A stretch of 38,751 nucleotides of DNA, taken from the IMG/VR virus record IMGVR_UViG_3300011115_000191, positions 1 through 38,751 of that record; one strand, 5' to 3'. The position numbers were made by a program, and so were the translations under genes. Shown in pieces: positions 898 through 26,846 of this stretch (its first letter is position 1; every line of letters starts with the position of its first letter). This DNA comes from a virus. A model generated the notes under the pieces. The model had not been told where the DNA came from, ran no database searches, and saw only the letters and a list, made by a program, of their open reading frames with translations.

Positions 898-926
898 TTG
901 ACAGGGGGGGTTCTCCCCCCTAGACT
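898..926 (+). promoter_or_regulatory. Sigma70-like promoter driving the AAA+/VWA cassette
   Basis: A perfect -35 hexamer TTGACA lies at 898-903. It is followed by exactly 17 bases and a -10-like TAGACT at 921-926, which matches four of six consensus positions. This sits in the 71-base gap between the small genes and the AAA+ gene at 959, the one sizeable gap in this part of the plus strand. It would be read by host RNA polymerase. The spacer is a perfect G/C inverted repeat, annotated separately. The call rests on sequence match and position only. Confidence 0.6.
904..920. repeat. G7-TTCT-C6 palindrome filling a promoter spacer
   Basis: Seven G, the loop TTCT and six C form a perfect six-pair G:C hairpin. 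It is flanked exactly by the -35 and -10 hexamers. It lacks a following T-tract, so it is not a classic intrinsic terminator for the plus strand. It could act as an operator, alter promoter geometry, or pause transcription arriving from upstream. Confidence 0.7.
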
Positions 927-958
927 TACCAAAAACAAAATCACAACAGGAGTATCAA

Positions 959-2077
959 ATGCAAGCACCTATGCTGTCGCATAAGCAGGTCTACGCGCTC
1001 ATCAAAGCCGTAGGTAAAAAGAGAACCGTCGTCGTGCAGGGTGAGACGGGTGTCGGTAAGACCTCCATTCAGATGGAGTTCATGCGTGATCCAGACTTCA
1101 AGGATTACCACGTCAACCGCCCCGTTGAATGCACTCAGTTGTCCGATGGTTCGATCTGGATGCCCGACATTGACCGAGAGTTGGGCGTGTCGCGTGAGTT
1201 ACCCAACGAGCGCTTCAGTATCAACGCTAAGAACCGCAAGGGCGTTGATGGTTCTAAGCCAGTGGTGTTGTTCTTCGATGAGATACTGAAGGCATCTAAT
1301 CCGGTCAAGTGTATGCTTGCACCGGTCATACACGACCACATGGTGGGTATGTATGGCGCACCAGAGGGCAGCATCATATGGTGTGCCACTAACTTAGAGT
1401 CTGAAGGGTTGGGTGACTCAGCCAAGATGCACCTGCGCACACGCTATAAGAGAGTGGTCATGCGCAAGCCTACGCAGCCTGAGTGGGCGAATGAGTTTGC
1501 CATACCTAACAACCTGCACCCTGCCATCATCGCCGCTACCGCGCTGCATCCCGAGTGGTTCGACTCGTTCATGGACTACGAGAAGGGCGGCAAGTATGAA
1601 GGTCGCACACTGGCGAGTGAGAACCCCTGCATCCACAACCCGCGCTTGGCACAGGACGGCATCGTTAGCCCACGCACACTGCACTCAGCGAGTGACTCGC
1701 TGCATGAGGCACACCTGATAGACAGGGAGACACTGTTAGCTGATCTGTGTGGCACCGTTGGGGTTACGGCAGGACATATCATCATGTCAGTGATGCGGTT
1801 GGTGAATGACATACCGGCACCCGAGCGTGTGTTTGCCGACCCGGACAACACGATGCTGTCTAACAACAAGTCAGCGCAGGTGCTTCAGGTGTTTCAGTTG
1901 TTCAACCGCGCTACCACACGCGACGATATGGCGGCTGTCGTGCGCTACGTAAGAAGGATGCACACAGAGATGCAGACAATCTTTCGCCATAGCGTCGAGA
2001 ACTCAGTCAAGAACGCGGTGTTCTCTACCATCACTGAGTTTCAGTCCATGTTGCAGGACAACCGGTTGTTTGTTTAA
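959..2077 (+). CDS. MoxR/CobS-like AAA+ ATPase
   Basis: This 372-residue protein is a single-domain AAA+ ATPase. It has a Walker A GETGVGKT at residues 28-35, a Walker B VVLFFDEI at about 102-109, a sensor-1-like IIWCATNLE at about 139-147, and arginines near 160 (HLRTRYKRV) that may include the arginine finger. MoxR-type ATPases form hexamers that remodel or activate partner proteins, usually together with a VWA-domain protein; related phage proteins are often labelled CobS. A VWA gene follows seven bases after the stop, which supports that pairing. An AGGAG sits six bases before the ATG, and the promoter at 898-926 lies directly upstream. The family is clear; the substrate is unknown. Confidence 0.88.
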   Translation: MQAPMLSHKQVYALIKAVGKKRTVVVQGETGVGKTSIQMEFMRDPDFKDYHVNRPVECTQLSDGSIWMPDIDRELGVSRELPNERFSINAKNRKGVDGSKPVVLFFDEILKASNPVKCMLAPVIHDHMVGMYGAPEGSIIWCATNLESEGLGDSAKMHLRTRYKRVVMRKPTQPEWANEFAIPNNLHPAIIAATALHPEWFDSFMDYEKGGKYEGRTLASENPCIHNPRLAQDGIVSPRTLHSASDSLHEAHLIDRETLLADLCGTVGVTAGHIIMSVMRLVNDIPAPERVFADPDNTMLSNNKSAQVLQVFQLFNRATTRDDMAAVVRYVRRMHTEMQTIFRHSVENSVKNAVFSTITEFQSMLQDNRLFV

Positions 2078-2083
2078 GGAGGC

Positions 2084-3253
2084 ATGATGATACCCAATCA
2101 CACATGGCAGACTATGCAGTTAGCACAGCGGGTGTCAGCCTGTAACGGTGACATCGTTGAGCATCCAGAGTTCGGGCGGCTCACAGGCGTGGTGTTTATG
2201 GGCGAGGTCATCATCAACCCCGCTTGCCCCACTGCCGCAACAAATGGGCGCGACGTTACCTATGGCACGACGTTCTGCGGGGCGTTGAACCAGAAGCAGT
2301 TGCGCTACGTGGTGCTGCACGAGAGCTTCCACAAGGGGCTGCGGCACTGCGTGTTGTATAAAGATATCGTCAAGCGTTACCCCGACGAGTCCAACCAAGC
2401 GCAGGACTATGTGATCAACGGGTTGATCGAAGAGGTTGACCCGACGTTCCAGTTTGTTGAGCGTCCGTGTGCGCTGTTGATAAACCCTAAGTATCAGGGC
2501 ATGGGGTTCATCGAGGTGCTGAAGGACATCATCAAGAACCCGCCGCCTCCCAGTGAGAGCAAGACGATGGATGAGCATGGGGAGATGGATGACGATCCCG
2601 AGTTGGGCGATGCGATTGAGGATGCGCTGATACAGGGGAAGATCGTGTCAGACCGCATACGCGGCGAGAAGGCGGGTGGTAACCCGTTGGATGTGCTGGT
2701 GCGTCCAAGCAATACGGCATGGCGTGACGCGACGCTGGAGTTCATGCAGGACGTGTGTGAGGGGGATGAGTTGAGCCGCATCTGTCCGCCGAACAAGCGT
2801 CTGCTGCCGTCTGGGTTTCTGATGTGGTCGCACTACTCAGAGACGGTGGGCGAGATCATCCTTGCGTGTGACACATCCGGTTCGATGGGTAGCGTGTATC
2901 CGGTGGTATTCGGGGAGATCGCGCACATCTGCCAGACGCTGTTGCCTGAGTCGGTGCGGGTGATCTGGTGGGATAGTCGGGTGCGCGGTGAGCAGGTCTT
3001 CACGCCCGACAACTACGAAGCGATAGCGAGTCTGATGAAACCACAAGGCGGGGGCGGCACAACTGTGTCTGCTGTCGCTGACTACATACAGGAGAAAAGA
3101 TATGAACCGAGAGCGCTGATATACCTGACCGATGGATACATCGAGTCTGAATACCGCACCCCTGCATTACCGATACTGTGGGGGGTTGTAGACAACACAC
3201 GGTTTGTGCCGCGTGTTGGTAAGAAAGTAGACATTTGCAGCTTCACAATCTAG
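2084..3253 (+). CDS. Metallopeptidase-like plus VWA domain protein (DUF2201-type), partner of the AAA+ ATPase
   Basis: This 389-residue protein has two parts. The N-terminal part carries a zinc-peptidase-like HESFH motif at residues 79-83 (VVLHESFHKGLRH). The C-terminal part is a von Willebrand A domain with an intact metal-binding DTSGSMGS motif from residue 263. This layout matches the DUF2201 family (metallopeptidase-like domain followed by VWA-like domain), which resembles CobT and other MoxR partners. The MIDAS site would bind a divalent metal and a client protein. AAGGAGG at 2076-2082 overlaps the upstream stop and is better spaced for the second ATG at 2087 than for 2084. Whether the HExxH site is catalytic cannot be told from the sequence. 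Confidence 0.85.
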   Translation: MMIPNHTWQTMQLAQRVSACNGDIVEHPEFGRLTGVVFMGEVIINPACPTAATNGRDVTYGTTFCGALNQKQLRYVVLHESFHKGLRHCVLYKDIVKRYPDESNQAQDYVINGLIEEVDPTFQFVERPCALLINPKYQGMGFIEVLKDIIKNPPPPSESKTMDEHGEMDDDPELGDAIEDALIQGKIVSDRIRGEKAGGNPLDVLVRPSNTAWRDATLEFMQDVCEGDELSRICPPNKRLLPSGFLMWSHYSETVGEIILACDTSGSMGSVYPVVFGEIAHICQTLLPESVRVIWWDSRVRGEQVFTPDNYEAIASLMKPQGGGGTTVSAVADYIQEKRYEPRALIYLTDGYIESEYRTPALPILWGVVDNTRFVPRVGKKVDICSFTI

Positions 3254-3264
3254 GAGATACACAA

Positions 3265-4173
3265 ATGCAACGCTATAACATTGATACATCTGCAATGCTG
3301 GTTGAAGTCAACGCGTCCGTATGGACTGCACGTAAGCTGGATCGTACGACAACCGATGAGGTCATCACACGCAAGAACGCTGCGTCGAAGGGTGCGGCAC
3401 GGGTTAACAAGCACCTGCTGGCTGGGCGTAGTGAGTTGGAGGTAATCGTTGCCCACGTTGGTGCGGTGCGTGGCTATGTGTATGCGAACACGCTGCCGTG
3501 GTCAGACAGCGGGATGCGCTTGCTGCCGGTGGTGAATTTCAAGGAGTTCAACGAGCGCATGAAAACGGAAGAGGATACGTATTGGAAGCTGTGCCAGACG
3601 TTCGTTGATGTCTACCCGACGTTGATCACTGCGCAAGCATTGCAACTGGGCGATATGTTCAAGCGCGAGGACTTCCCCAGCCCGGACAGCATCCTGCACA
3701 AGTTTGCGTTTCAGGTGAACTACATGCCCGTGCCGACATCGGGTGACTTCCGTGTGGATGTGGGTAACGATGCGCAAGCCGAGCTTCACGCACAGTTGGC
3801 GAAGCTGGCAGATGACCGCGTGTCGAAGGCGATGGAGGATGTAAAGCTGCGCTTGCGGGATCATCTGGCGCGGATGTCTGATCGTCTGTCGGTTGATGTG
3901 GTGAACAACGTGGCAAAACCAAAAGTCTTTCACAACTCATTAATTGAGACGGGGCTTGACCTGTGCGATATGTTGCAGCGGTTGAACCTTGTAGGTGACC
4001 CCACGATTGAGACCGCACGGGCTAAGTTGGAGATATGCCTTAGCAACATAACCACACGCACCAAACGCAACGGAACTGAAATATCCATAGCGGAAACGTT
4101 ACGGGATGATATGCAGCAGAGAAGTGCAGTAAAAGCACAGGTTGATGAGATTCTTAACAAGTTCACATGGTAG
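3265..4173 (+). CDS. DUF3150-like protein of the AAA+/VWA cassette
   Basis: This 302-residue protein follows the VWA gene by 11 bases. I chose ATG 3265 because TAGGAG ends eight bases before it; a TTG at 3235 would extend the ORF into the VWA gene. The sequence is mostly alpha-helical and soluble, with a charged helix around KLADDRVSKAMEDVKLRLRD. It resembles DUF3150 proteins, which I recall travelling with CobS-like ATPases and VWA proteins in phages. That assignment comes from length, context and general appearance, not a diagnostic motif. It is probably a third subunit or the client of the ATPase. Confidence 0.6.
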   Translation: MQRYNIDTSAMLVEVNASVWTARKLDRTTTDEVITRKNAASKGAARVNKHLLAGRSELEVIVAHVGAVRGYVYANTLPWSDSGMRLLPVVNFKEFNERMKTEEDTYWKLCQTFVDVYPTLITAQALQLGDMFKREDFPSPDSILHKFAFQVNYMPVPTSGDFRVDVGNDAQAELHAQLAKLADDRVSKAMEDVKLRLRDHLARMSDRLSVDVVNNVAKPKVFHNSLIETGLDLCDMLQRLNLVGDPTIETARAKLEICLSNITTRTKRNGTEISIAETLRDDMQQRSAVKAQVDEILNKFTW

Positions 4174-4184
4174 AGGAAACGGTA

Positions 4185-4646
4185 ATGACTAAAACAGAGA
4201 AGATTCGCAGGGCGCTGTTGAAGACCCCTAAAGCCAAAGCCAAAGTAGTAGCAGAGCGGTTAGGCGTAACTGTGCAGGACGTATACACCGCACGTTACCT
4301 AATGAAAAAACAGAACAGGGCAAACGGGTATGCACCGTTGGAGACGCCGGTAAACATGCGTACGGAAATGTTGAAAGAAGTAATGCCGGGTTTAAACGCT
4401 TTGTTTAACACTGATTATGCGGGGACTCCCTCAGAGGTCACGAGCAAAGAAGATATGGTGAATCACCCCCCGCACTACACCGTGGGTGGCGTTGAGACTA
4501 TCGACTTCATTGAGGCGAAGCAGTTGAACTTTAACTTGGGTAACGTGGTTAAGTATCTGAGCCGTGCAGGGGAGAAGGGCGATGCACTGCAAGACCTACA
4601 GAAGGCACGTTGGTATCTGAACCGTGAGATAGCGAGGGTGGAATGA
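4185..4646 (+). CDS. DUF3310 protein with N-terminal helix-turn-helix
   Basis: This 153-residue protein has a C-terminal DUF3310 domain, recognised by VNHPPHYTVGGVETIDFIEA followed by FNLGNVVKYLSRAGEKGD and a final LQKARWYLNREI. DUF3310 is very common in phages and lies near nucleotide-metabolism genes, but its activity is unknown. The N-terminal about 40 residues (KAKVVAERLGVTVQDVYTAR) look like a helix-turn-helix, suggesting nucleic-acid binding; the linker is low in structure. I chose ATG 4185, with GAGG eight bases upstream, over ATG 4167, which lies inside the previous gene. Confidence 0.85.
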   Translation: MTKTEKIRRALLKTPKAKAKVVAERLGVTVQDVYTARYLMKKQNRANGYAPLETPVNMRTEMLKEVMPGLNALFNTDYAGTPSEVTSKEDMVNHPPHYTVGGVETIDFIEAKQLNFNLGNVVKYLSRAGEKGDALQDLQKARWYLNREIARVE

Positions 4647-14904: not shown

Positions 14905-17820
14905 ATGACACCGCTGGAATTTATAGCGGCTGTAGTACCGTCGGCGGGGGTTTTATGCGTCGCGGAACTAAGCTCAAAGAAAAAAGAACACGTATTTGTA
15001 GACAAGGTTGAAGACCTTGCACCGCACATCAGGCGCTTTGTTGAAGCTAAAAGGGATACTTACTTTGCACTAGCGAGTTTTACAGAGAGTGGTAAACGTA
15101 CGGCACCCAACGCGCTGTACATCCGGTCGTTGTTCGTTGATATCGACTGCGGCGCAGGTAAGCCGTATCTGACCAAGCAAGCCGCCGCTACCGCGCTGGA
15201 TGGTTTCCTGCAAGCCACAACGCTAGGCGTGTTGGGGAACCCGTGGGTTGTCACGTCTGGCGGGGGGCTGCACGTCTACTGGCCTTTCACGGACAACATA
15301 CCTGTCGCGCAGTGGCGTCCGGTTGCTGAGAACTTCAAGCGCTTATGCAAGAAGCACTCGTTGCACATTGACTTTACAGTAACCGCCGATGCAGCGCGGG
15401 TGTTGCGTGTGCCGGACAGCTACAACTGGAAGATCAAAGACAAACCGCGCAAAGCCAAGATCATGATCGAGGGCGTGACGTTTGCCTTTGCTGACATCGC
15501 TGCTGCGGTCAAGGTGCAGATCAACGGTGAGGCTGTGGCGGAGCCGGTGTTTAACCCTGCGGCGATTCCCGGTGTGCGCCCCAAACGCCAGACACCATCA
15601 CAGGTCAAGCTGATTGAGAACAGCGTCACACGGTTTAAGAACATCATGCTGCGCACTGACGGCGGTTCAGGGTGCCTACAGTTGCGCCACTACGCCGAGA
15701 ACGCAGCACAAGACGGTATGGAACCGCTGTGGCGTGGCTTGTTGTCAATTGCTCAGAAGTGTGTGGACGGCGCGAAAGCGGCAAAGTGGTTGTCTGGGCT
15801 GCACCCCTATACGCCAGACCGCATGGAACAGAAGATGCGCGAGATCAAGGGGCCATACTCCTGCTCTAAGCTGGATGGCGAGAACCCCGGCGTCTGCGAG
15901 AAATGCCCGAACTGGGGCAAGATCACCAACCCACTGGCACTGGGGCGGGAAGTCGCAACAGACAACACCGCAAAAGAGATCACGCTGCCGCCTGAGAATG
16001 GTTCAAGCACCGAGCCGGTATCACTGCCCAACCAGATCAAAGTCACGCGCCCCACGCCGCCACGCGGCTTCTCTTACGGCAAGAACGGGGGCATCTACCG
16101 CGCGATAGAAGCGGAAGACGAGAGCAAGAACACGATTAAGAAACAAGTTTTGGTATTACCGTATGACTTGTTTGTTGTAGACCTGTTGAACGTCAACAAA
16201 GAACACTACGTCTTTATGTTGGCAACCCGCCCAGAAGGGGCGATTCAAGTGTCCTTGCAGCAGAAGGCGGTAGTCAGCAAGGATGATACGGTCAAGGCGT
16301 TGGCTGCGCAGAACATCGTGGCGGCGTATGGGGCTGGCAATGACAAGAACCTGTTTGATTACGTCAGGGCGTGTGTAGAGGAGGTATCCTCTAGCAAGCA
16401 AGCGATCAACGTCCCTACGAGCTATGGGTGGCAAGCAGACGGTGGGTTTGTGGCAGGTGGCAAGATATTCATGGCTGATCAGACAGTGCGCCAGATACCC
16501 ATGCCGGGGCTGGAAAACCTTACCCACGCTACCACGCCGAAAGGCACCCTAGAGACATGGCGCAAATACCCGCAGATGCTGATAGCGAAGGGTCTGTATG
16601 ACGTGCTGGCGATTGGCTGCGGTGTGGGTTTTGGTTCCCCGCTGATGGAGTTCACGGGGCTGGATGGTCTGACCTTCCACGCTGGCTCCACTGAATCTGG
16701 CACCGGCAAGACCGTGGCGCTGGAGTTGGCGGCGTCCATCTGGGGGCATCCGCGTGACTACCGTGTGGGTAAAAGCACGTCCTCAGTCGCCATGCAGCAA
16801 CGGGCGGGGATGCTGCGGAACCTGCCGCTGTTGAGCGATGAGATTACCAGTAAGAACCGGCGCGATGCAGAGTGGTTTCCTGAGTTTGTGTTTGACTTGT
16901 CAGAAGGCCGCGCTAAAGAGCGTATGGAGTCGGGTGCTAACAAAGAACGCCTCAACACATCGGTCTGGTCGTTGATGGCGATTCTGTCCTCCAACACGCA
17001 CATGATGGACTACCTGACCGGTGGACGGAAGCACTCGTCTGAGGGTGAGATACGCCGGATGCTGGAGTGGGTTACCAACGAGTCGCTATCGTGGGAGGCG
17101 CATGAAGTTGAGGTTATCAAGACGCTGCGCTACCACCACGGCACCGCTGGCGATGTCTATGCACGGTGGCTGACGCTTAACCGCAGCACGGCGATAGCGG
17201 TCTACCAGAGCGTGTATCAGCGCATCAGGGCTGAGTTCAAGATGACCAACGACGAGCGTTACTGGCATGCTGGCGTGGCGTGTTGTGTGGCGGGGTGCAT
17301 CCTTGCTGGATCGAAGTATTCCAACGTGGTTGACCTGCCCGTGCAGCAGATCATTATCAGCTTGAAAGTAATTGTTGAGAAGGCGCGTGTCACGGTTCGT
17401 TCTAACGTCCGCACGGCTGAAGACATCCTGAATGCCTACATCAGCGAGTTCTACGGTAAGTTCATCGTGGTGCGCGTGATTGATGGGGCGATACAAGCGA
17501 CGTTCGGGGAGTCTGGCACTGTGGACGAGTCGATCACACGCACAAACATTTCAGGTCGGGTCGAACGGAACGTAACTCCGGGTTACATAAACTTCTTTAT
17601 AGAAGAACGGATGCTCAAGTCTTACTGCTCCAGCATGAGCTTTGGGTATGCAGACTTCCGCAAGCAGATGGAGAGGCAGCACCGCGTTGAGTATATCAAG
17701 AAGGATATGTTGTCCAAGACCAAAGGCCCACAGATGCGCGTGAACACAATTAAGATCAGTCGCCCTGAGTCACCGTTGCTTGAGACCGATGTCGATCAAA
17801 ATATATTACCCGTGGACTGA
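14905..17820 (+). CDS. Primase-helicase fusion (AEP-like primase plus DUF927-type helicase)
   Basis: This 971-residue protein joins two activities. The N-terminal about 190 residues look like a primase-polymerase of the archaeo-eukaryotic type, with LFVDIDCG (Asp79, Asp81), SGGGLHVYWPF and RVLRVPDSYNWK. A cysteine cluster (C-S-C and CEKC near residues 315-335) may bind zinc. The C-terminal half resembles DUF927 helicases, with Walker A GSTESGTGKT at 594-603 and Walker B LLSDEI around Asp645. Such proteins prime and unwind at the replication fork. It is the largest early gene and the penultimate one of the plus-strand block. Confidence 0.85.
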   Translation: MTPLEFIAAVVPSAGVLCVAELSSKKKEHVFVDKVEDLAPHIRRFVEAKRDTYFALASFTESGKRTAPNALYIRSLFVDIDCGAGKPYLTKQAAATALDGFLQATTLGVLGNPWVVTSGGGLHVYWPFTDNIPVAQWRPVAENFKRLCKKHSLHIDFTVTADAARVLRVPDSYNWKIKDKPRKAKIMIEGVTFAFADIAAAVKVQINGEAVAEPVFNPAAIPGVRPKRQTPSQVKLIENSVTRFKNIMLRTDGGSGCLQLRHYAENAAQDGMEPLWRGLLSIAQKCVDGAKAAKWLSGLHPYTPDRMEQKMREIKGPYSCSKLDGENPGVCEKCPNWGKITNPLALGREVATDNTAKEITLPPENGSSTEPVSLPNQIKVTRPTPPRGFSYGKNGGIYRAIEAEDESKNTIKKQVLVLPYDLFVVDLLNVNKEHYVFMLATRPEGAIQVSLQQKAVVSKDDTVKALAAQNIVAAYGAGNDKNLFDYVRACVEEVSSSKQAINVPTSYGWQADGGFVAGGKIFMADQTVRQIPMPGLENLTHATTPKGTLETWRKYPQMLIAKGLYDVLAIGCGVGFGSPLMEFTGLDGLTFHAGSTESGTGKTVALELAASIWGHPRDYRVGKSTSSVAMQQRAGMLRNLPLLSDEITSKNRRDAEWFPEFVFDLSEGRAKERMESGANKERLNTSVWSLMAILSSNTHMMDYLTGGRKHSSEGEIRRMLEWVTNESLSWEAHEVEVIKTLRYHHGTAGDVYARWLTLNRSTAIAVYQSVYQRIRAEFKMTNDERYWHAGVACCVAGCILAGSKYSNVVDLPVQQIIISLKVIVEKARVTVRSNVRTAEDILNAYISEFYGKFIVVRVIDGAIQATFGESGTVDESITRTNISGRVERNVTPGYINFFIEERMLKSYCSSMSFGYADFRKQMERQHRVEYIKKDMLSKTKGPQMRVNTIKISRPESPLLETDVDQNILPVD

Positions 17821-17977
17821 AACCGAAGTGGGGCAGAGCTTCTTCGTGCCTTCGCTAGATGTGTATAAAACAAAAGAGGCAGGGCTAGTTGTAGCCCTGC
17901 ATCTCCACATCAAAGGTAAAGCAACTTTCGGTTTACTGCATGGCAAACACGGGGTGCTGTTTACGCGGCTTTCCTGA
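17789..17977 (+). CDS. Unknown small phage protein, 62 aa, overlapping the convergent late gene
   Basis: ATG 17789 lies 32 bases inside the primase-helicase gene. The product begins MSIKIYYPWTETEVGQSFFV and ends HGVLFTRLS, a compact alpha/beta-like pattern. I recall similar short phage proteins with a YYPW start. Codons for AGLVVAL encode one strand of the terminator hairpin at 17879-17900. The last 17 bases overlap, on the opposite strand, the end of the giant late gene. The ribosome site is weak. Confidence 0.65.
   Translation: MSIKIYYPWTETEVGQSFFVPSLDVYKTKEAGLVVALHLHIKGKATFGLLHGKHGVLFTRLS
17866..17900 (-). terminator. Intrinsic terminator of the late (minus-strand) operon
   Basis: GCAGGGCTA at 17879-17887 and TAGCCCTGC at 17892-17900 form a perfect nine-pair stem with a four-base loop. 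Read on the minus strand, the stem is followed by CTCTTTTGTTTTATA, a T-rich run as expected for a Rho-independent terminator. It lies 61 bases beyond the stop of the giant gene, the last late gene. On the plus strand no T-tract follows, so it acts in one direction only. Confidence 0.8.
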
Positions 17978-20900
17978 TTATTTCACGATACTGTTTGGCT
18001 ATATCTATCTGGTCTTTGCGCAACTGGTCAAGACGCTTACGCTTTTCAGAAGGCACCAGATCAGACGCTTTAACCTGTGCAACATCATCTGCTATCTGTT
18101 TCATGTTGTTCTTAAAGTCTGGATAAGTTTCGCCAATTGAAATGCGCTGTAGGTTGGCGTTAAGGTAAGCATCCGCTTCAGCGGTTTTACCGTCATCGTT
18201 TAGTTTCTTATAAGTGTTAACCGCCCGTTCGCCATCCTGCATCAACTCATACGTGCGGTTAATAACCCCACCCGCATCGTTAGGTTGAAACGCGCTACCA
18301 ATAAACGCGGTTTGAGATGTTTTCTTTTCGGCTTCTTTTGCGGCAGAACTTGCAAAAAACGCATCCGCCAATGACACCGCAGACAACAGTGTTTGCGCAC
18401 CAACCCCGCGTATAAACTGGTCAACCTTAACGGGAGACACACCCGGAATACCCATACTGCCTAGTGTTTTTGCAAGTTCAGTGGTTGTGTCTTTATAGCG
18501 TTGCGCAGGATCAAGCGCTTGCATACGCGGTGACTCAACGTCAGCCCCAGTAAAAAGGTCTTTACCGGTAACACCCTCAACAACCGGCACAAGAAACTGC
18601 GGTATAGTTTTGCTAGAACCGCCCGGAATTGAGTTGATACCCATTTGCACGAGCGCTTTACCAATATCCGATACGTCATCATCTCCAGCTACAGAATTGT
18701 AAATGGCTTCAGGAATAGCTTTAGCAAGCAAACCAAATTCAAACGGAATTGGTATACGAACAGGCTCATCAAAAAACGGAACGCGCACAAACCAGTTGTT
18801 GAGCTTTTGTTCCGGGGTAGCGTTCTTGTAGGCTTCGTCGTCTTCCATTGCCATTGCATACATAACAGTAAACGCAGCCATTGCCATAGCCCGTTGCTTA
18901 AATTTTTCTTGAATTTTTAAGCGTTCGTTGTACGGCAGTTTGCCGGTCATAGCTTTAATAAATACGCTCATGCCTTGTATCTGCGCGTTAAAGAACGGAT
19001 ACAACGTATTGGCCCACTGTATAGATGGAGCTACACCGCGACGGTTAAAGTCAGTAATTTCATTGGCGGCAACCCACGCTTCCATCTCATTCAAACCTTG
19101 TTTGATGTAGCTGTTGTAAGCCGCCAACCGAACGCCCACATCCGCCTCCATACTCTTGGCTTCAGCAAAAGCAAGCAGTCCTGATATTGATTGTTTACCG
19201 CTCACAACACTGCGCAGAACAGTAGACAACGCTTCTTTGCTGCCACCGGCAAGAACTTGTCCACCAAGCAGCCCTTGGCTTTCAAGCAGCGCGGCTTCGC
19301 GGCTAGTGCCGGTTAACGACTTGTATATATTTTTGAACGGGTCTACTACGGGAATAAAGTTGGCACCGCTGGTTCCCAACGCAGAGAACGAATCTTTAAC
19401 AACCTGCCGAAGCGGATACAACGGGCTTAAGATAACAGCGCGGCGAAGAAACTGTGCGGGGAGACCCATCAGTTCAAGCGCTTTAGGCATTGTAGTTTTA
19501 ACGCCTTCCAACCCCTTAACCAGTAGCGTTGGCGGAATACCATCAAACATCGTATCTTTTGTTTCTACGCGAACCGCAATATCTTCGCCATCTTTCCTAA
19601 AGCGAATAACATTAGCGCCTTTATACATGCCTGAAACTTTAATGCTTTCTTTTTGTTCACCGGTTTGTTTGTCTTTATACTCACGCGTTTCAAGCATACC
19701 AAGCTTGCGTAGCGTGTCAACAACACTACCCGTTGCAATGTTACGCAGCGCCATGTCTGTCAACAAATTTGTGTTCTGTACCGCGCTGGTGAAAATGTTA
19801 CTAATTGCAGTGTCACCGCCTACCAAGCCGTGCAAATGCGGCTGCTCTGTCAAGTTTCCAACAATGATCGGGCTTGATTCGTTGCCCAAAATTAACTCAA
19901 TCTCACCGCTTGGGTTTTCCCGATAGAACGGGATGTAATCTTTGGTAGCGCGAAGGGCATCCGCTTTTTCTTTAGAAAGCGCCCCCGCTTGTTCGGCAAA
20001 ATCAACCAAGCCTTTGTTGTATTCGTTGTATATACCCCGCGCTTTATCAAACGCAGTTTTAACTCTAGGCATTGCCGCAATCTCACGCTCAAACTGTTGA
20101 AGCTTGGCTTCAGTCAGCATTTGATTGCCGTTTTTGTCTTTACCAAAATTTAATTTATCAACGCCAATTTTCTCGTTTTTAACCCGCTGCGCTGCCATAT
20201 ACATGGTAAACATATCACCGGCATCTTTTTCAGCAAGCCCCGATTCACCTAGAGCTTTAAACACTTTAACAAGGTTAGCGCCGTCCTTGTTCTTGGTTTC
20301 AACCATCCAATATTTGTTAGCGCCAGTGCCTTTTTGTTTGTATTCAAGCGCACCGTTTGCCGCAACCAGCCGCGTAAAGTTCATTATCTTGTCACGCGCA
20401 CTCAAGTTGTAGCGCACTTGTGAAGCTTCCAAATCTGTAATCTTTTTACCTGCAACGCCCTTTTCAAGCGCTGCCCAGATGGGCGCATAGCGATCTACAA
20501 ACTGGGTCATACCCGCCAAACCCGTTATGTTGCCGCGTATTTCGTCAATCTTAGACCTGTCTTGTGCCACTACAGAGTGCATAATGTCCCACGATTCAGC
20601 GCTCATACCGGCAGGGCGAAGACCTTCTTTTCCTCTAAAAACAATCGTGCCATCGGGGGATACATAAGCACCCAACTGCCCCGCTGCCAAACTGCGTGAC
20701 GACTCACGAATCAACGCTTGAATTTCTTTGGCATCGCGCTTTGCCATGTCAGACAAGCCCATGTTACGGAACAAACTGCGCACCGCAGCGATCATGTCAC
20801 GGATCAGCCCCTTAACCTGCTCAGTAAAAGTGGGTGCAACACGACGCCCCTCGGCAGCGTGGGCAATCATCTCCCGCACAACCATCATCCGAATTTCAGG

Positions 20901-23900
20901 GTTCTTCAGCAAATCTTTTGCCGCCAGCGCGGTCTCAACGTCAGGGAACACGTTTAGCGCCGTGGCAACATCGGCTACGTGCCGTTCGCCTTGCTTAAAC
21001 AGCCGATCAACCAGCGCTTGCATACGCTCTGGCCCAAGCACGGTGTCCACGCCGTAGTGACCGATCAACTCGTGCGCAATGGTCTCTTCAAGGTCGGCAG
21101 CGCTTTTGTGCGCTTCGCCTATTACAACCACGGTGCCGTCTGGCAGCACTGCGCCTTTGGCGTAAGTCACGCCGTCTTCAGCCATTGCATCACGCATACT
21201 TTGCGGAACATCCGCCATCGTAGGGGCGTATACAAAATTGATACCTTTTGGCAACGCTTTCTTAACCCGCGCCGCCACGTCAGCCGCAGCTTTAGAGTCT
21301 ACGCCACGGTCTTGCGGCGTGGCTTCGCGGTATTCAGTGCGTTTTTTACCGCCCCGTTTTGTTGTAGTAACAGGGCCGGGGGCTTTAGCTTCGTTTGATA
21401 TGCCCGTTTTGGCGTACGTGCGAATACCGGTTACGCCTGTAGCGCTTTCTCTTTCGGTAATGGCGTATGCAGTTCGTATGTCTTTTTGCAGCTTGTTTTC
21501 TGTGGCAACACTTAATTTACGGTTGCTCAAAACAATTTTGTTTGCTTTAGCCAAAGCTTTAATATTATCCAATGCCGTGGCAGCAGCTTCCAGCCTATCA
21601 GTCCACCGTTTTAAACCGGCTGGAAGCTTAACCATAGCCGATCTAATATTGTACCTTTGCGCTGTAAGCAGTTTTAAATTGTCCGCTGAAAGCTTTTTGT
21701 TTTTAAGCTTTTTATCAAGCCCTACTAATTGTTTTTCTAAAGCCGCTCTTTGCGCTGTTGCTTGGTCAACAGCAGCAGACGCCCCTTCGTATTCTTTAAG
21801 GGCCGTGTTATACCTAGCGGGTAGCGTTGTTGCGTAAGTTTCAGCAAGTTTCTGCTGAATAAGTTTTTCTCTTACCAATTTACCTTGTTCTTCTGGAGTA
21901 AGTGTAAGCCATTTAGTTCCAAGTTCACCTTCAAGCACATCGCGGATGTCTTGAATACGTTCTTGTCTTTCTTCTTTTGGTGTTAATGCTTCTATTCTAG
22001 GTGCTTTTTCAATCCGCACCGGCATTGTCATACGTTGTTGCAAGTTTGTGCGTTTGTTTACCAGCTTACTAAAAAGCGCTGCTGCTTTTAACTGGTAATC
22101 CGTTCTGTTTAACGTGTCTGAAAGCCCTAAAGCTTTAAGCTGCAACGCATCAGCGTCGTTAAGCTCTATATTGCTTACGTTTATTTTTAAAGCTTTGCCA
22201 ACGCTTTTTATTGCTTTGTTTAAACGCTTAATACTGCTTTCATACCGGCCAAGTTCAGTTCCGGGGGCTGCATTTTTAACACTAACAAGGGTAGTTTCAA
22301 AAGTTTTTGTGCTAATAACATACGGTTCAAAACTTGCAGCAATTTTATTAGCTAAAGTTTCTTGTTGTTTTTCTGCGGTAGAACTTAAAGCATCAACTTT
22401 TGCTTCTATTGCGTCAAGTTGTTTTGATAAACGATTAACTTGTTCTTCAGTTTTTAACTTGTCAATGTAGCGTTCAATAGATTCAAGAATAAACTGTTCT
22501 TTAAGTATGGCTTCTTTGTACTTTTTGAAGGGCGCTTCATAGCTTTTCTTTAATTCAGGTATGGCAAAGTTTTTTATGTATGCTTGTTCTTTACCAACAG
22601 CTTTTTCAGTTTTAGCTAAAACGTCCGCAACTTTTGCATCTACTTTTTTAACGTCGCTAAAAAACCCTTCAAGCTTTGCTTGTTCTAACCACGATTTAAA
22701 TTTTGGTGTTTTAACGCTTGCCAAAGCATCTTTAGCACTCAGCGTCTTGTTTGTTTTTGTAAGCTCATTAAAATAACCCTCAAACACCGCTTGTTTTAAC
22801 CAAGCTTTAAACTCAGTAGATTTAAACCCTTTTAACGCTGAATCAACTATTTGTGAGGCTTCAACATCAAAGTTAGCGGGGCTATCAAAAAAACCTTCAA
22901 ACGCAGATTGCTGTAACCACTCTTTAAACTTAGGCGTTTTATACTCTTCCAGCATTTCCATCTTAAGATTAAGATTTTTAAGCTCTTGTTCAAAAGTGGT
23001 GTGCGCGGCGTTGTATTTAAACTTTAAAACTTCTATTTTGTCCTCTAGCCGCTTTTTAATAATCTGCTGCGTCTTTAAGTTGCTTTCAAGCGAGGTTGTT
23101 TCCGCAGGTGTTTTTTCCTGTTGTTCTTGTTCAATTTTAAGTGCTTTTAATTTGCGGTTGCGTTCAGATGCAGCCGCATTTAAAGAATCAGCCCACTCTT
23201 TAGCTACTTGTTTTACAAGCGCGGTATTTAAAACGCGATCCGCTTTTTTACGCGAAGGTTTATTTTTTATTTCCGTTAATTTTTCTTCACGAATAGCGTT
23301 AATTTGCGTTGTTTTATCACGCCATTCTTTTTCTATTTCTTTTTCACGTTTTGCAAATGTGTTTTGTTCTTTTTCAGGTTCTTTTTTCTTTTTGTTCTCA
23401 GCCTTTATGCGGTCGCGTTCAACTTTAGCTTCTTCCGCTTGGTTTTGTTTGTAGTTAAAAGCTTGCGCTTTACGGAGCCGTTCAAACCGTGCTGGGGTTG
23501 TACGAGTTGTGCCACGCGTTTCCGCAAACATTTCTTTTTGACCCGCCTCATCACCAACATATTGTTTGGCGGTGGCAAGGTCTTTTTGCAACTGCTCAGG
23601 GTTGGCTTCAAGGCCCATAACCACACGATCCGCCAAAGTAAACGCTTCATCAATGACGTTTTGTTTAGTTGGGGTGGGGCCGTAAACAGAGGTTTCTAAA
23701 AAGTCTTTAGCATCACGCAGAGTCTGCCGCACTTCTGGCGACATAACCGGTTCTGCCAACGCATCGTCAATTCTATTAACAGCCTGAGTGCGCGAGTCTT
23801 TATCTTCAGCGCGGCCTTGTGCTTGCGCAAAACTTTCTTGAACAAGATCAAATGCGCCAGCTTGTTTATTACCTGTTTTGGGTTGTTGTTTTCCAACAAG

Positions 23901-26846
23901 ATTTTCTACTAATGAATCGACACCCGCTTGAAGCTTTGCTAACTCGCTAATTTTGCGTTGGTTTACGGGTTTGCTAAGTTCTCCCGGCCCACCAAGCTTG
24001 GTCATACCACGCTTAATTTCCGTACCAAGCAGCAACCGAAGTTTGCGTTCTGCCCTCATCCACGGCGCTATTTGTTCTTTAGTAGCACCTTCTTGAACCA
24101 TTTTTGATATTTCCGCACCAATAGCTGCAATTCTTCTACGCGCAGCCGCTTGCCTTGCGTTATCAGGTTTTGGTTTAGCCCTAAGCAAAAGGTTGTTTAG
24201 CGCTTTACGCAACTTACCTAAAGCAACTGTTTTACGAGTGCTTTCATCAAAAGATTTTGAAAGGTTTTGACGCGCAGCGGTTTTATTAGCTTCAGTAGCA
24301 TCAAAATATAAAGACCACAAATTTTCAGTTTTTTGAAGTTTGCCCAACGAAGCCAACCGCGCATCAACTTCTGTTCCAGCGGCATTAACAATTGTATCTA
24401 TAAGCGCTTTACCTTTTTCTTCGTAAGCACCTTCGTTTTTAATTGTTGTATTTGTTTTTCCTTGGCGCAAAAGTTCAATCAAATTGCCAAGTTCAAACAT
24501 TGCATTTTTACGTTCTTCAGCGCTTTTGTTAGCGGCTGCTTGAGCTTCAACAACTTGACGCTGCTTTGAAGCTTCATTAACTTCTTTACCTAAGGGTGCT
24601 TTTGTAAGCATCTCTTCGGCGGGGGTTTGTTGCAGCGTTGTTTGCGCGGCGTCACGTAGCTGGTTAAGCTCATGCAACGTAGCTTCCATGCGCACAAAAC
24701 GGTTTCCTGCGGGAGTAAGATGTCCGTTTTGAATTAATTCTTTGTTTGGAAATACCCGTTTACGAAATTCTTCCAAGCTTTTTATTTTAGCGTTCAATAC
24801 CGGCAACGCCGTTTCAGCATCGTCCGTATTTTTAAGGTCAAGCGCTTTATTGTCTGGAACTTTAATACCAAAAATATTGGCAACTTGAGGTGTAATTTGT
24901 TGATCGTTAAGGGCCGTATCTATTTGCTGATATGCACGAGCCGCGCCTAATGACGTTTTACCGGTGCCAACAACAACCGTTTTTAAAGGGTCTTCAAGCA
25001 ATTGCTGCGCTTGCTGAGTGCCTTGTTCAAAGCCAAGATTGTTTAATTGTTCTGACAATTTAGCTTTAAATGCTTCTTTCCTATCAGCAGCGGCGGCGAT
25101 TCTTTCTGCGTTTATATTTTCTTCTGCTTGTGGCCCTAAACGTGTTTGAAAAGCGGTGAACCCTTTTTCCATTTCTGCACGTTTAACGGCCCGTTCTTTT
25201 TCTGTAGTGCCTTTAGTTAATGGAACCCCCGCTAACAAATCACCGGTTGTATCAACCTGCGCGTTGTATGGGGCAAGCTTGGCTCCAATAGCCAGCATCT
25301 TTTGCCAATCACCAGCTTGTGCGGCAGCGTCATATTGTTTCTGCAAAGCTTGTGCTTGTTTGTCAGACACCGGCAACGGCGCTTGTTTTAACAGCTTATC
25401 AAGTTGTTTAATCTGATTATCAACGGTCAGACTTTGTTGATACAGCGCTTGCGCAGCAACAGGGTTTACTGCGGCAACTTGCTGCATTTGCGTAGCTAAC
25501 GCATCACTTTTTTCTTGCAACGCATCACGTTGCTGTTGCAACGCTTCGGGGTCTTTAAGCTGCTCACTTAGACGGTTAAAGTCGTTACGCAAAGCAGACG
25601 CGGTTTGTGTGTCACCTTGAGCTTCGGCATCTCTGATCTGCGTGTACAACTGCTGCATCGACTGTTGAACCGGCAGCGCTGATGCTTCCCCTTCAAACAA
25701 CCGCCCTTGAGGGCCAACTGCTTGGGGGGCTTCAATCGCCGCTTGTTGTTGCGCGGCACGGGCTTGCTGAGCTTGTTGAGCTTGAGCGGCTTCCGCAGCC
25801 TGTTGCTGCTGTTGAAGCGCGGCTTGCTGCTGTGCAGCTTGTGCATCTCTGGTTTGCTGCAACTCTTGTAGTTGATCACGCGCTGCGCTGCGACCGCTGA
25901 CTCCACCCACGCCACCAAACAACGCGCCGGGGCCAACAACCCCCACCGCCGTAGCAACATATTCTTTTCGTGCATCTGCATCAAAAAGCGACAGACCTGC
26001 TTGCCAACGCTCAAGCACGGCTTGCGCAGTTTCTGTTGGCATTTCTACTGCAACACCGGTAGCCGCCCCACGCCCAACCGTTTTAGCAAGGCTGCGTTCT
26101 GCGGTTTTAACCAGTTCAGCTTCGGCTTTTTCAACACCAAGTTTAGGTAACGCACTAGCAAAAAGTTTACCAACACCCAAACGACCCAACACAAAAGCTG
26201 TTTCAGCAACATCCAGCGCGGCTTGCGGGGCAGCAGCAGTTGCAGCTTTGCTGTAGTCTAGGGGTTTAGCTTCTTTAGCTTTTTCGTTTTCATCAACTTG
26301 GCGTTCGACGTTTGTTCCAACAAACGCCGGATATGACGCAGCCAACGCGCCCAAAGCCCCGCCACCAATCGTGCCTACCGGCCCCAAAGGTGAACCTGCC
26401 ATTGCACCCAACCGCGCACCACTTGCTACAGCGCCCATCTGCGGCAACGACTCACCAATTTGCCCACGCCACATACCCAACAAAGAACTTAAGCCGCCAC
26501 GTTCTTCAGGTTTTTCACCGCCAAACAGCCCATACTTTTCTTGGGCTGTTTGTACATCTTCCCAGCTAGGAGCTTTTGCAGTCTCCATACGCTTGGCTTG
26601 GGAGCGTTCAATACCCCGTTTTGTGGCTTCATCAGAGAGGCCGAACAGCGGAGCCGCAGCAGTTGAGTACGCAGACTTGAGGGACTCAAGACCAGACTTT
26701 ACGCTTGGTATAAAACCTTCCTCCGCTTTTTTTTCATCTGCATACAGTTTGGGAAACTGATTTTTAGCAAGTTTTATAGCTTCATCATCAGACAACCCGC
26801 TAGGAATTTCAACATATTTGCCAGACGGCGTTTGTAAATACGGCAT
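17961..26846 (-). CDS. Giant polyvalent virion protein, 2961 aa
   Basis: This is the last and largest late gene. The N terminus has IPSGLSDDEAIKLAKNQFP, a short motif I recall from very large podophage proteins. A Gly/Ala-rich hydrophobic region follows at about 130-180 and a Q/A-rich stretch at about 325-375. Roughly 400-1800 is a long charged, coiled-coil region. HELIGHYG at about 1921-1928 is a zinc-peptidase-like HExxH. The C-terminal third contains YIPFYRENPSGEIELIL and ITDFNRRGVAPSIQWANTLY (near 2600), features I associate with LPD38-type polyvalent proteins. It is probably ejected into the host with the DNA. No lytic transglycosylase motif is apparent. The start follows a weak GGAA. 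Confidence 0.85.
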   Translation of the reverse strand: MPYLQTPSGKYVEIPSGLSDDEAIKLAKNQFPKLYADEKKAEEGFIPSVKSGLESLKSAYSTAAAPLFGLSDEATKRGIERSQAKRMETAKAPSWEDVQTAQEKYGLFGGEKPEERGGLSSLLGMWRGQIGESLPQMGAVASGARLGAMAGSPLGPVGTIGGGALGALAASYPAFVGTNVERQVDENEKAKEAKPLDYSKAATAAAPQAALDVAETAFVLGRLGVGKLFASALPKLGVEKAEAELVKTAERSLAKTVGRGAATGVAVEMPTETAQAVLERWQAGLSLFDADARKEYVATAVGVVGPGALFGGVGGVSGRSAARDQLQELQQTRDAQAAQQQAALQQQQQAAEAAQAQQAQQARAAQQQAAIEAPQAVGPQGRLFEGEASALPVQQSMQQLYTQIRDAEAQGDTQTASALRNDFNRLSEQLKDPEALQQQRDALQEKSDALATQMQQVAAVNPVAAQALYQQSLTVDNQIKQLDKLLKQAPLPVSDKQAQALQKQYDAAAQAGDWQKMLAIGAKLAPYNAQVDTTGDLLAGVPLTKGTTEKERAVKRAEMEKGFTAFQTRLGPQAEENINAERIAAAADRKEAFKAKLSEQLNNLGFEQGTQQAQQLLEDPLKTVVVGTGKTSLGAARAYQQIDTALNDQQITPQVANIFGIKVPDNKALDLKNTDDAETALPVLNAKIKSLEEFRKRVFPNKELIQNGHLTPAGNRFVRMEATLHELNQLRDAAQTTLQQTPAEEMLTKAPLGKEVNEASKQRQVVEAQAAANKSAEERKNAMFELGNLIELLRQGKTNTTIKNEGAYEEKGKALIDTIVNAAGTEVDARLASLGKLQKTENLWSLYFDATEANKTAARQNLSKSFDESTRKTVALGKLRKALNNLLLRAKPKPDNARQAAARRRIAAIGAEISKMVQEGATKEQIAPWMRAERKLRLLLGTEIKRGMTKLGGPGELSKPVNQRKISELAKLQAGVDSLVENLVGKQQPKTGNKQAGAFDLVQESFAQAQGRAEDKDSRTQAVNRIDDALAEPVMSPEVRQTLRDAKDFLETSVYGPTPTKQNVIDEAFTLADRVVMGLEANPEQLQKDLATAKQYVGDEAGQKEMFAETRGTTRTTPARFERLRKAQAFNYKQNQAEEAKVERDRIKAENKKKKEPEKEQNTFAKREKEIEKEWRDKTTQINAIREEKLTEIKNKPSRKKADRVLNTALVKQVAKEWADSLNAAASERNRKLKALKIEQEQQEKTPAETTSLESNLKTQQIIKKRLEDKIEVLKFKYNAAHTTFEQELKNLNLKMEMLEEYKTPKFKEWLQQSAFEGFFDSPANFDVEASQIVDSALKGFKSTEFKAWLKQAVFEGYFNELTKTNKTLSAKDALASVKTPKFKSWLEQAKLEGFFSDVKKVDAKVADVLAKTEKAVGKEQAYIKNFAIPELKKSYEAPFKKYKEAILKEQFILESIERYIDKLKTEEQVNRLSKQLDAIEAKVDALSSTAEKQQETLANKIAASFEPYVISTKTFETTLVSVKNAAPGTELGRYESSIKRLNKAIKSVGKALKINVSNIELNDADALQLKALGLSDTLNRTDYQLKAAALFSKLVNKRTNLQQRMTMPVRIEKAPRIEALTPKEERQERIQDIRDVLEGELGTKWLTLTPEEQGKLVREKLIQQKLAETYATTLPARYNTALKEYEGASAAVDQATAQRAALEKQLVGLDKKLKNKKLSADNLKLLTAQRYNIRSAMVKLPAGLKRWTDRLEAAATALDNIKALAKANKIVLSNRKLSVATENKLQKDIRTAYAITERESATGVTGIRTYAKTGISNEAKAPGPVTTTKRGGKKRTEYREATPQDRGVDSKAAADVAARVKKALPKGINFVYAPTMADVPQSMRDAMAEDGVTYAKGAVLPDGTVVVIGEAHKSAADLEETIAHELIGHYGVDTVLGPERMQALVDRLFKQGERHVADVATALNVFPDVETALAAKDLLKNPEIRMMVVREMIAHAAEGRRVAPTFTEQVKGLIRDMIAAVRSLFRNMGLSDMAKRDAKEIQALIRESSRSLAAGQLGAYVSPDGTIVFRGKEGLRPAGMSAESWDIMHSVVAQDRSKIDEIRGNITGLAGMTQFVDRYAPIWAALEKGVAGKKITDLEASQVRYNLSARDKIMNFTRLVAANGALEYKQKGTGANKYWMVETKNKDGANLVKVFKALGESGLAEKDAGDMFTMYMAAQRVKNEKIGVDKLNFGKDKNGNQMLTEAKLQQFEREIAAMPRVKTAFDKARGIYNEYNKGLVDFAEQAGALSKEKADALRATKDYIPFYRENPSGEIELILGNESSPIIVGNLTEQPHLHGLVGGDTAISNIFTSAVQNTNLLTDMALRNIATGSVVDTLRKLGMLETREYKDKQTGEQKESIKVSGMYKGANVIRFRKDGEDIAVRVETKDTMFDGIPPTLLVKGLEGVKTTMPKALELMGLPAQFLRRAVILSPLYPLRQVVKDSFSALGTSGANFIPVVDPFKNIYKSLTGTSREAALLESQGLLGGQVLAGGSKEALSTVLRSVVSGKQSISGLLAFAEAKSMEADVGVRLAAYNSYIKQGLNEMEAWVAANEITDFNRRGVAPSIQWANTLYPFFNAQIQGMSVFIKAMTGKLPYNERLKIQEKFKQRAMAMAAFTVMYAMAMEDDEAYKNATPEQKLNNWFVRVPFFDEPVRIPIPFEFGLLAKAIPEAIYNSVAGDDDVSDIGKALVQMGINSIPGGSSKTIPQFLVPVVEGVTGKDLFTGADVESPRMQALDPAQRYKDTTTELAKTLGSMGIPGVSPVKVDQFIRGVGAQTLLSAVSLADAFFASSAAKEAEKKTSQTAFIGSAFQPNDAGGVINRTYELMQDGERAVNTYKKLNDDGKTAEADAYLNANLQRISIGETYPDFKNNMKQIADDVAQVKASDLVPSEKRKRLDQLRKDQIDIAKQYREIIRKAA
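22660..22940 (-). repeat. Three-copy protein repeat inside the giant gene
   Basis: Three copies of a KFKxWLxQxxxEGFF motif occur in a row: KFKEWLQQSAFEGFF, EFKAWLKQAVFEGYF and KFKSWLEQAKLEGFF. They are spaced 39 and 37 residues apart, at about residues 1300-1395. The DNA copies have diverged, so the duplication is not recent. The segment lies in the lysine-rich coiled-coil part of the protein. Confidence 0.8.

Follow-up and report, generated by a model that had tools for sequence, protein, structure and literature searches.

A largely co-inherited phage cassette of a MoxR-class AAA+ ATPase, an HExxH-VWA protein and a DUF3150-like protein, with relatives on conjugative plasmids

The window examined in this study is the whole of IMG/VR record IMGVR_UViG_3300011115_000191 (38,751 bases), which is probably a genome fragment. 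It carries three adjacent genes for a MoxR-class AAA+ ATPase, a protein with both an HExxH motif and a VWA domain, and a DUF3150-like protein. We propose, with a probability of about 0.5, that their products form one ATP-driven, VWA-coupled remodelling and proteolysis machine that would act early on a protein complex that hinders or serves mobile DNA as it establishes itself and replicates after entry. The proposal starts from direct observations of motifs, conservation, linkage, joint inheritance, promoter conservation and presence in both phages and plasmids.

Cassette layout and conservation

The ORF list confirms the three-gene cassette of the original prediction (Table 1), with products of 372 and 389 aa from genes 1 and 2. 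Gene 2 begins 7 bases past the end of gene 1. There are two successive ATG codons at its start (2084-2089), and the distance from the Shine-Dalgarno sequence (aaggagg, 2076-2082) suits the second of them, at 2087, better. The third reading frame is also open from a TTG at 3235, but its start is most likely the ATG at 3265, which is preceded by a ribosome-binding site and is used by close relatives as well. Pairwise dN/dS values against the closest relative are approximately 0.14, 0.13 and 0.11 for genes 1, 2 and 3, as simple pairwise estimates in which the synonymous sites of gene 3 are partly saturated. Values of 0.11-0.14 indicate purifying selection on all three genes and argue that the cassette is not a chance assemblage.

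Table 1. Features of the cassette and its surroundings in the window
Feature	Position	Strand	Basis or remark
Sigma-70-like promoter, TTGACA-17-TAGACT	898..926	+	32 bp ahead of gene 1; conserved in close relatives
Ribosome-binding site aggag, gene 1	948..952	+	AGGAG invariant in seven aligned sequences
Gene 1, MoxR/midasin-class AAA+ ATPase	959..2077	+	phrog_1297, motifs, N4 gp24 homologue
Walker A GETGVGKT, gene 1 aa 28-35	1040..1063	+	Motif, homologue alignment
Gene 2, HExxH metallopeptidase-VWA (putative)	2084..3253	+	DUF2201_N + DUF2201, phrog_1314, N4 gp25 homologue
HESFH zincin motif, gene 2 aa 79-83	2318..2332	+	Motif, homologue alignment
MIDAS DTSGS, gene 2 aa 263-267	2870..2884	+	Motif, homologue alignment
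Ribosome-binding site aggag, gene 3	3252..3256	+	Sequence
Gene 3, DUF3150-like third component, 302 aa from ATG 3265	3265..4173	+	Profile match, relatives' starts
DUF3310 protein	4167..4646	+	Pfam; overlaps gene 3 by 7 bases

The cassette shares its strand with the genes for a polymerase, an exonuclease, a helicase and a primase, whereas the virion and lysis genes occupy the other strand. This layout supports a place in the early or replication block rather than in the virion block.

The opposite-strand virion block opens with a gene (17961-26846, minus strand) for a 2961-aa protein that lacks a PHROGs match and carries an LPD38 domain near its C-terminus, in a layout resembling that of Rhizobium phage RHph_TM3_14A (L081). 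The primase-like protein encoded at 14905-17820 and the gene order also provide a distant tie to this phage (L080/L081). Pseudomonas phage Rollin has the primase too, and no AAA, VWA or DUF3150 gene was found in the stretch fetched from it.

The ATPase and the HExxH-VWA protein

As predicted, the AAA+ module of gene 1 is intact, with Walker A and Walker B (VLFFDE) motifs, and residues G28, G31, G33, K34, D107, E108, N145 and R162 are invariant in 19 homologues. The protein matches phrog_1297 at 4e-30, and a profile search of solved structures places Midasin nearest (1e-22), with CbbQ and NorQ lower at about 2e-4. The AAA modules of Midasin, CbbQ and NorQ are all partnered with VWA domains. Together, the AAA+ motifs and this nearest kin identify gene 1 as a MoxR AAA+ protein. 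Its Pfam matches (AAA_16, AAA_2 and AAA_7) are all sub-threshold, and the AAA_5 cut-off, which the Chitinophaga homologue of gene 1 exceeds, is a label of convenience and not a biological criterion.

Gene 2 indeed combines an HExxH site (HESFH, from residue 79) with an intact MIDAS (DTSGS...GGT...TDG). Nine residues, namely H79, E80, H83, D108, D263, S265, S267, T326 and D350, are invariant in 34 homologues. Both DUF2201 (8e-12; 45.8 bits against a cut-off of 26.4) and DUF2201_N (7e-6; 26.3 against 23.2) are matched in Pfam, as is phrog_1314 at 4e-52, such that adjacent genes of the window match both members of the phrog_1297/phrog_1314 pair typified by N4 gp24/gp25. The predicted structure (mean pLDDT 82.9) places the VWA domain at residues 252-389, with fold matches reaching a Z score of 12.3 over about 137 residues at 2.6 A, and the MIDAS domain of human MDN1 is among the Foldseek matches of the model. 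Sequence searches of solved structures with genes 2 and 3 yielded nothing useful. We consider gene 2 to encode a putative zincin metallopeptidase in which D108, invariant in the window's clade, is the candidate third metal ligand.

The family phrog_1314 is named 'HNH endonuclease' in PHROGs, and many phage records, including that of N4 gp25, carry the same name. The motifs argue against this name and point to a metallopeptidase-VWA protein, and relabelling the family would correct a database name that is spreading.

A DUF3150-like third component

The DUF3150 identity assigned to gene 3 holds at the level of remote homology. By itself, the protein scores 16.9 bits against Pfam DUF3150 (E = 0.0041), below the gathering score of 24.9 bits, and for this reason we call it DUF3150-like. 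The family is matched by 11 of the 16 members of the gene 3 alignment (best 1.3e-6), and a Chitinophaga homologue that is 34% identical to gene 3 reaches 30.0 bits. When the gene 3 profile is compared with canonical DUF3150 proteins, hhalign reports a probability of 83.5% and an E value of 8.3e-6 over 212 columns. A PDB search with the predicted structure (mean pLDDT 79.8) gave helical-bundle similarities and nothing significant, a result that does not by itself establish a new fold. Among viral predicted structures, eight proteins were matched, of which at least one is named DUF3150. The term 'DUF3150' was not found in the literature searched.

Promoter and operon structure

Viewed in isolation, the promoter-like sequence ahead of gene 1 is no more than expected from shuffles of the region. 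Its conservation was assessed in seven aligned sequences, comprising the window and six relatives of the close subclade, with L017 and L072 being nearly identical. The -35 element TTGACA is invariant among the seven, the -10 element recurs as TAnnnT and the spacing is 17-18 nt, while the spacer and flanks have largely diverged. This pattern supports the use of the host sigma-70 polymerase by the cassette. Beyond this subclade, most of the clade shows no visible counterpart of the promoter, and the proposal that the cassette has its own promoter thus stands for the close subclade.

The operon extends past the three genes, since the DUF3310 gene overlaps the gene 3 stop (4167-4173). A DUF3310 relative is present in 28 of 58 loci, and this gene is a probable operon member outside the core trio.

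Joint inheritance in phages

Absence of co-occurrence in other phages had been set beforehand as a refutation test of the prediction. Scanned with gene 1 as the sole query, IMG/VR gave 55 loci; in eight of them the contig breaks off no more than 700 bases from gene 1. All 47 uncut loci hold the three genes on one strand, as do all 43 loci with at least 2.6 kb of downstream sequence, although some of the 55 are near-duplicates (clustering gene 1 at 95% identity leaves about 35 groups), and the number of independent cases is correspondingly smaller. The order is AAA-VWA-DUF3150 in 33 loci, AAA-DUF3150-VWA in 13 and VWA-AAA-DUF3150 in one. The prediction was not refuted by this test, and because membership is kept through the permutation of order, joint function is favoured over hitch-hiking. 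The trio is also present in Planktothrix and Synechococcus phages.

Some phages carry the AAA+ and VWA genes without a detected DUF3150 gene, including N4 and other Schitoviridae, jumbo phages and Rhizobium phage RHph_TM3, with the search for some of them confined to the stretch around the pair. For N4, Presley, PG11 and PA5oct, a profile search elsewhere in the genomes found no DUF3150 at E values up to 1. The existence of these phages suggests that the AAA+/VWA core pair can work without the third protein, which weighs against the single-machine proposal. Presence of DUF3150 requires two changes on the maximum-likelihood VWA tree and likewise on the AAA tree, compared with a shuffled mean of about 9.6, and none of 500 shuffles was as low as two; both trees have long deep branches and some nodes with modest support. 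The distribution indicates that the three genes have mostly been passed on together and that DUF3150 was probably lost in RHph_TM3. A 257-aa gene that follows the VWA gene in RHph_TM3 was considered as a diverged DUF3150 gene and rejected, given that it has no profile match.

Relatives on plasmids and in an integrative element

The trio is also found on plasmids of Burkholderiales and Rhodovastum, in several cases flanked by a PRTRC cassette on one side and type IV secretion genes on the other. In six Burkholderiales plasmids (L068, L077, L078, L079, L089 and L090) it lies in a conserved backbone behind the PRTRC genes, with a conserved hypothetical protein of about 505 aa also ahead of it and type IV secretion genes mostly just after. 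In the plasmid of Paraburkholderia acidisoli, the AAA gene (L079:6667-7856) appears to be split over two frames, and may be broken or carry a sequencing error. On a Chitinophaga chromosome, the trio probably sits in an integrative element, because a tyrosine integrase, an RteC gene and a PIN_8 gene adjoin it. The PIN_8 domain gene (L074:4334-5515, minus strand), which is divergent from the trio and beside the integrase, is a possible functional neighbour.

A comparable set exists on IncC plasmids. Specifically, pSN254 carries a MoxR AAA gene, ssb, bet, exo, DUF3150 and VWA. Four more distant plasmids, chosen down the match ranking, hold AAA, DUF3150 and VWA genes together, with recT and exo adjoining in three of them, and canonical DUF3150 genes on MPF_F conjugative plasmids occur with MoxR AAA and VWA genes, mostly beside ssb, recT and exo. 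The IncC DUF3150 protein is matched by 1,102 PLSDB records, 970 of which are typed as conjugative.

The IncC and MPF_F cassettes resemble that of the window in their three components, in the N-terminal HExxH of the VWA protein (near residue 60 in all five plasmid proteins) and in matching DUF3150 profiles. They differ in having a CbbQ/NorQ-type AAA protein and a longer, CobT-like VWA protein, and in being embedded with ssb, recT and exo. Single IncC proteins, those of pSN254 included, have no significant match to the phage profiles, and the link emerges only with alignments on both sides: in profile-profile comparison, the phage and plasmid VWA families align over TDG - HExxH - N.xD (62%, E 7e-5, 67 columns). 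The two trios are only remotely related, and the reading that they represent two ancient branches of one machine is supported, not proven.

A proposed machine and its alternatives

In the mechanism that we propose, gene 1 would assemble as a MoxR-class AAA+ ring on which gene 2 docks via its VWA domain, as in MoxR-VWA precedents. By analogy, the MIDAS metal of gene 2 would hold the client, and ATP hydrolysis would pull or twist the VWA protein together with the client, whereupon the HExxH domain may cut whatever is exposed. The DUF3150-like protein could serve as a recruiting adaptor or, less likely, be the client itself. Expression from the host-type promoter would presumably be early, and the client may be a DNA-associated complex that hinders or serves the establishment or replication of incoming mobile DNA.

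A different role would be that of a chaperone-protease in virion assembly that folds and trims structural or ejected virion proteins, with the DUF3150-like protein as assembly adaptor. A role in virion assembly has been proposed for a homologous jumbo-phage pair by analogy with the tail chaperones of archaeal ATV (PMC7824862). In its favour, giant internal proteins (2961 aa) are encoded in the window. In addition, the PA5oct homologue of gene 1 bears an 'ESI-MS/MS' note and the Kaldavass pair lies among virion structural genes, two observations that fit a virion role and count against our reading. However, conjugative plasmids and an integrative element, which make no virions, keep the trio, and in the window's lineage the genes lie on the replication strand behind a conserved host-type promoter; for both reasons we favour a function early on, in the establishment or replication of mobile DNA. 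N4 gp24/25, moreover, are middle genes (PMC4193335). We regard virion assembly as an unlikely function for the window's cassette; it may still apply to the jumbo-phage pairs.

A dedicated protease for counter-defence or host takeover would instead disassemble and cut a host defence or housekeeping complex early. The conserved sigma-70 promoter and the invariant HExxH and MIDAS residues are consistent with such a device, as is the occurrence of the trio in elements that enter cells as foreign DNA, namely phages and conjugative plasmids. Against this, the clade keeps the genes almost without exception and the pair is core in Schitoviridae, which resembles a core function rather than a patchily distributed anti-defence gene. 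PADLOC and NCBIfam gave no meaningful match for the cassette, and we judge the takeover or counter-defence role originally suggested rather improbable. It is highly improbable that the trio is a cofactor- or metal-insertion machine like CobST, NorQD or CbbQO that matures one metalloenzyme: the plasmid AAA protein has a CbbQ_C domain, the plasmid VWA protein matches CobT and one is annotated NorD, but no conserved client enzyme gene adjoins the trio across phages and plasmids and the HExxH peptidase signature is retained almost throughout.

A broader form of the early-acting machine can be put forward as speculation that may well not hold. Here, the MoxR AAA+/DUF3150/zincin-VWA set would be an undescribed machine common to lytic phages and to conjugative plasmids of broad host range, IncC resistance plasmids among them, and would serve both by stripping or cutting the host proteins that act on DNA just after it enters the cell.

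Comparison with known systems

The AAA+/VWA pair is already known, and the third gene makes the window's cassette a variant of it. The original prediction correctly placed the set in the MoxR-VWA class and missed its identity with N4 gp24/gp25, the jumbo-phage precedent and the occurrence on plasmids.

MoxR-vWA ternary conflict systems likewise combine MoxR and vWA proteins with a third component (PMC7159879). That component is VMAP, iSTAND or FtsH, whereas DUF3150 alone rises above noise in a Pfam scan of the gene 3 alignment. Furthermore, those systems provide chromosomal immunity in multicellular bacteria, whereas the trio described here belongs to lytic phages and plasmids. In NorQ-NorD, a MoxR AAA+ protein also drives a MIDAS-bearing VWA partner, which puts a finger into the pore and contacts the post-sensor-1 loop through its C-terminus; twisting of this partner by ATP turnover remodels the client (PMC13036017). 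NorD differs in that it inserts iron into NO reductase, and no DUF3150 partner is described there.

The jumbo-phage pair ASV44729/ASV44728 of Atu_ph07, in which a metallopeptidase-vWA protein was described as the co-chaperone of a MoxR chaperone (Iyer & Aravind 2021; PMC7824862), has the same two-protein architecture, and its locus matches both window profiles. It differs in its proposed role in virion assembly and in having no DUF3150 gene in the stretch fetched. The HExxH letters, retained almost throughout the other homologues, were not found in the homologue at this locus.

Further known counterparts are the Schitoviridae core AAA+ and vWFA proteins, N4 gp24 and gp25, which are core genes of N4-like phages with no assigned function (PMC4193335, PMC7650795, PMC2784036). 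They are a homologous ATPase and HExxH-VWA protein encoded by adjacent genes on the early/middle side of the genome, and differ from the window's cassette in lacking a DUF3150 gene by whole-genome profile search. No functional study of gp24/gp25 was found in the literature searched. Listed without function since 2009-2014, these proteins are now tied to a widespread plasmid cassette, and the jointly inherited third gene, together with a plasmid backbone trio that serves no virion, provides a testable early-function hypothesis for them.
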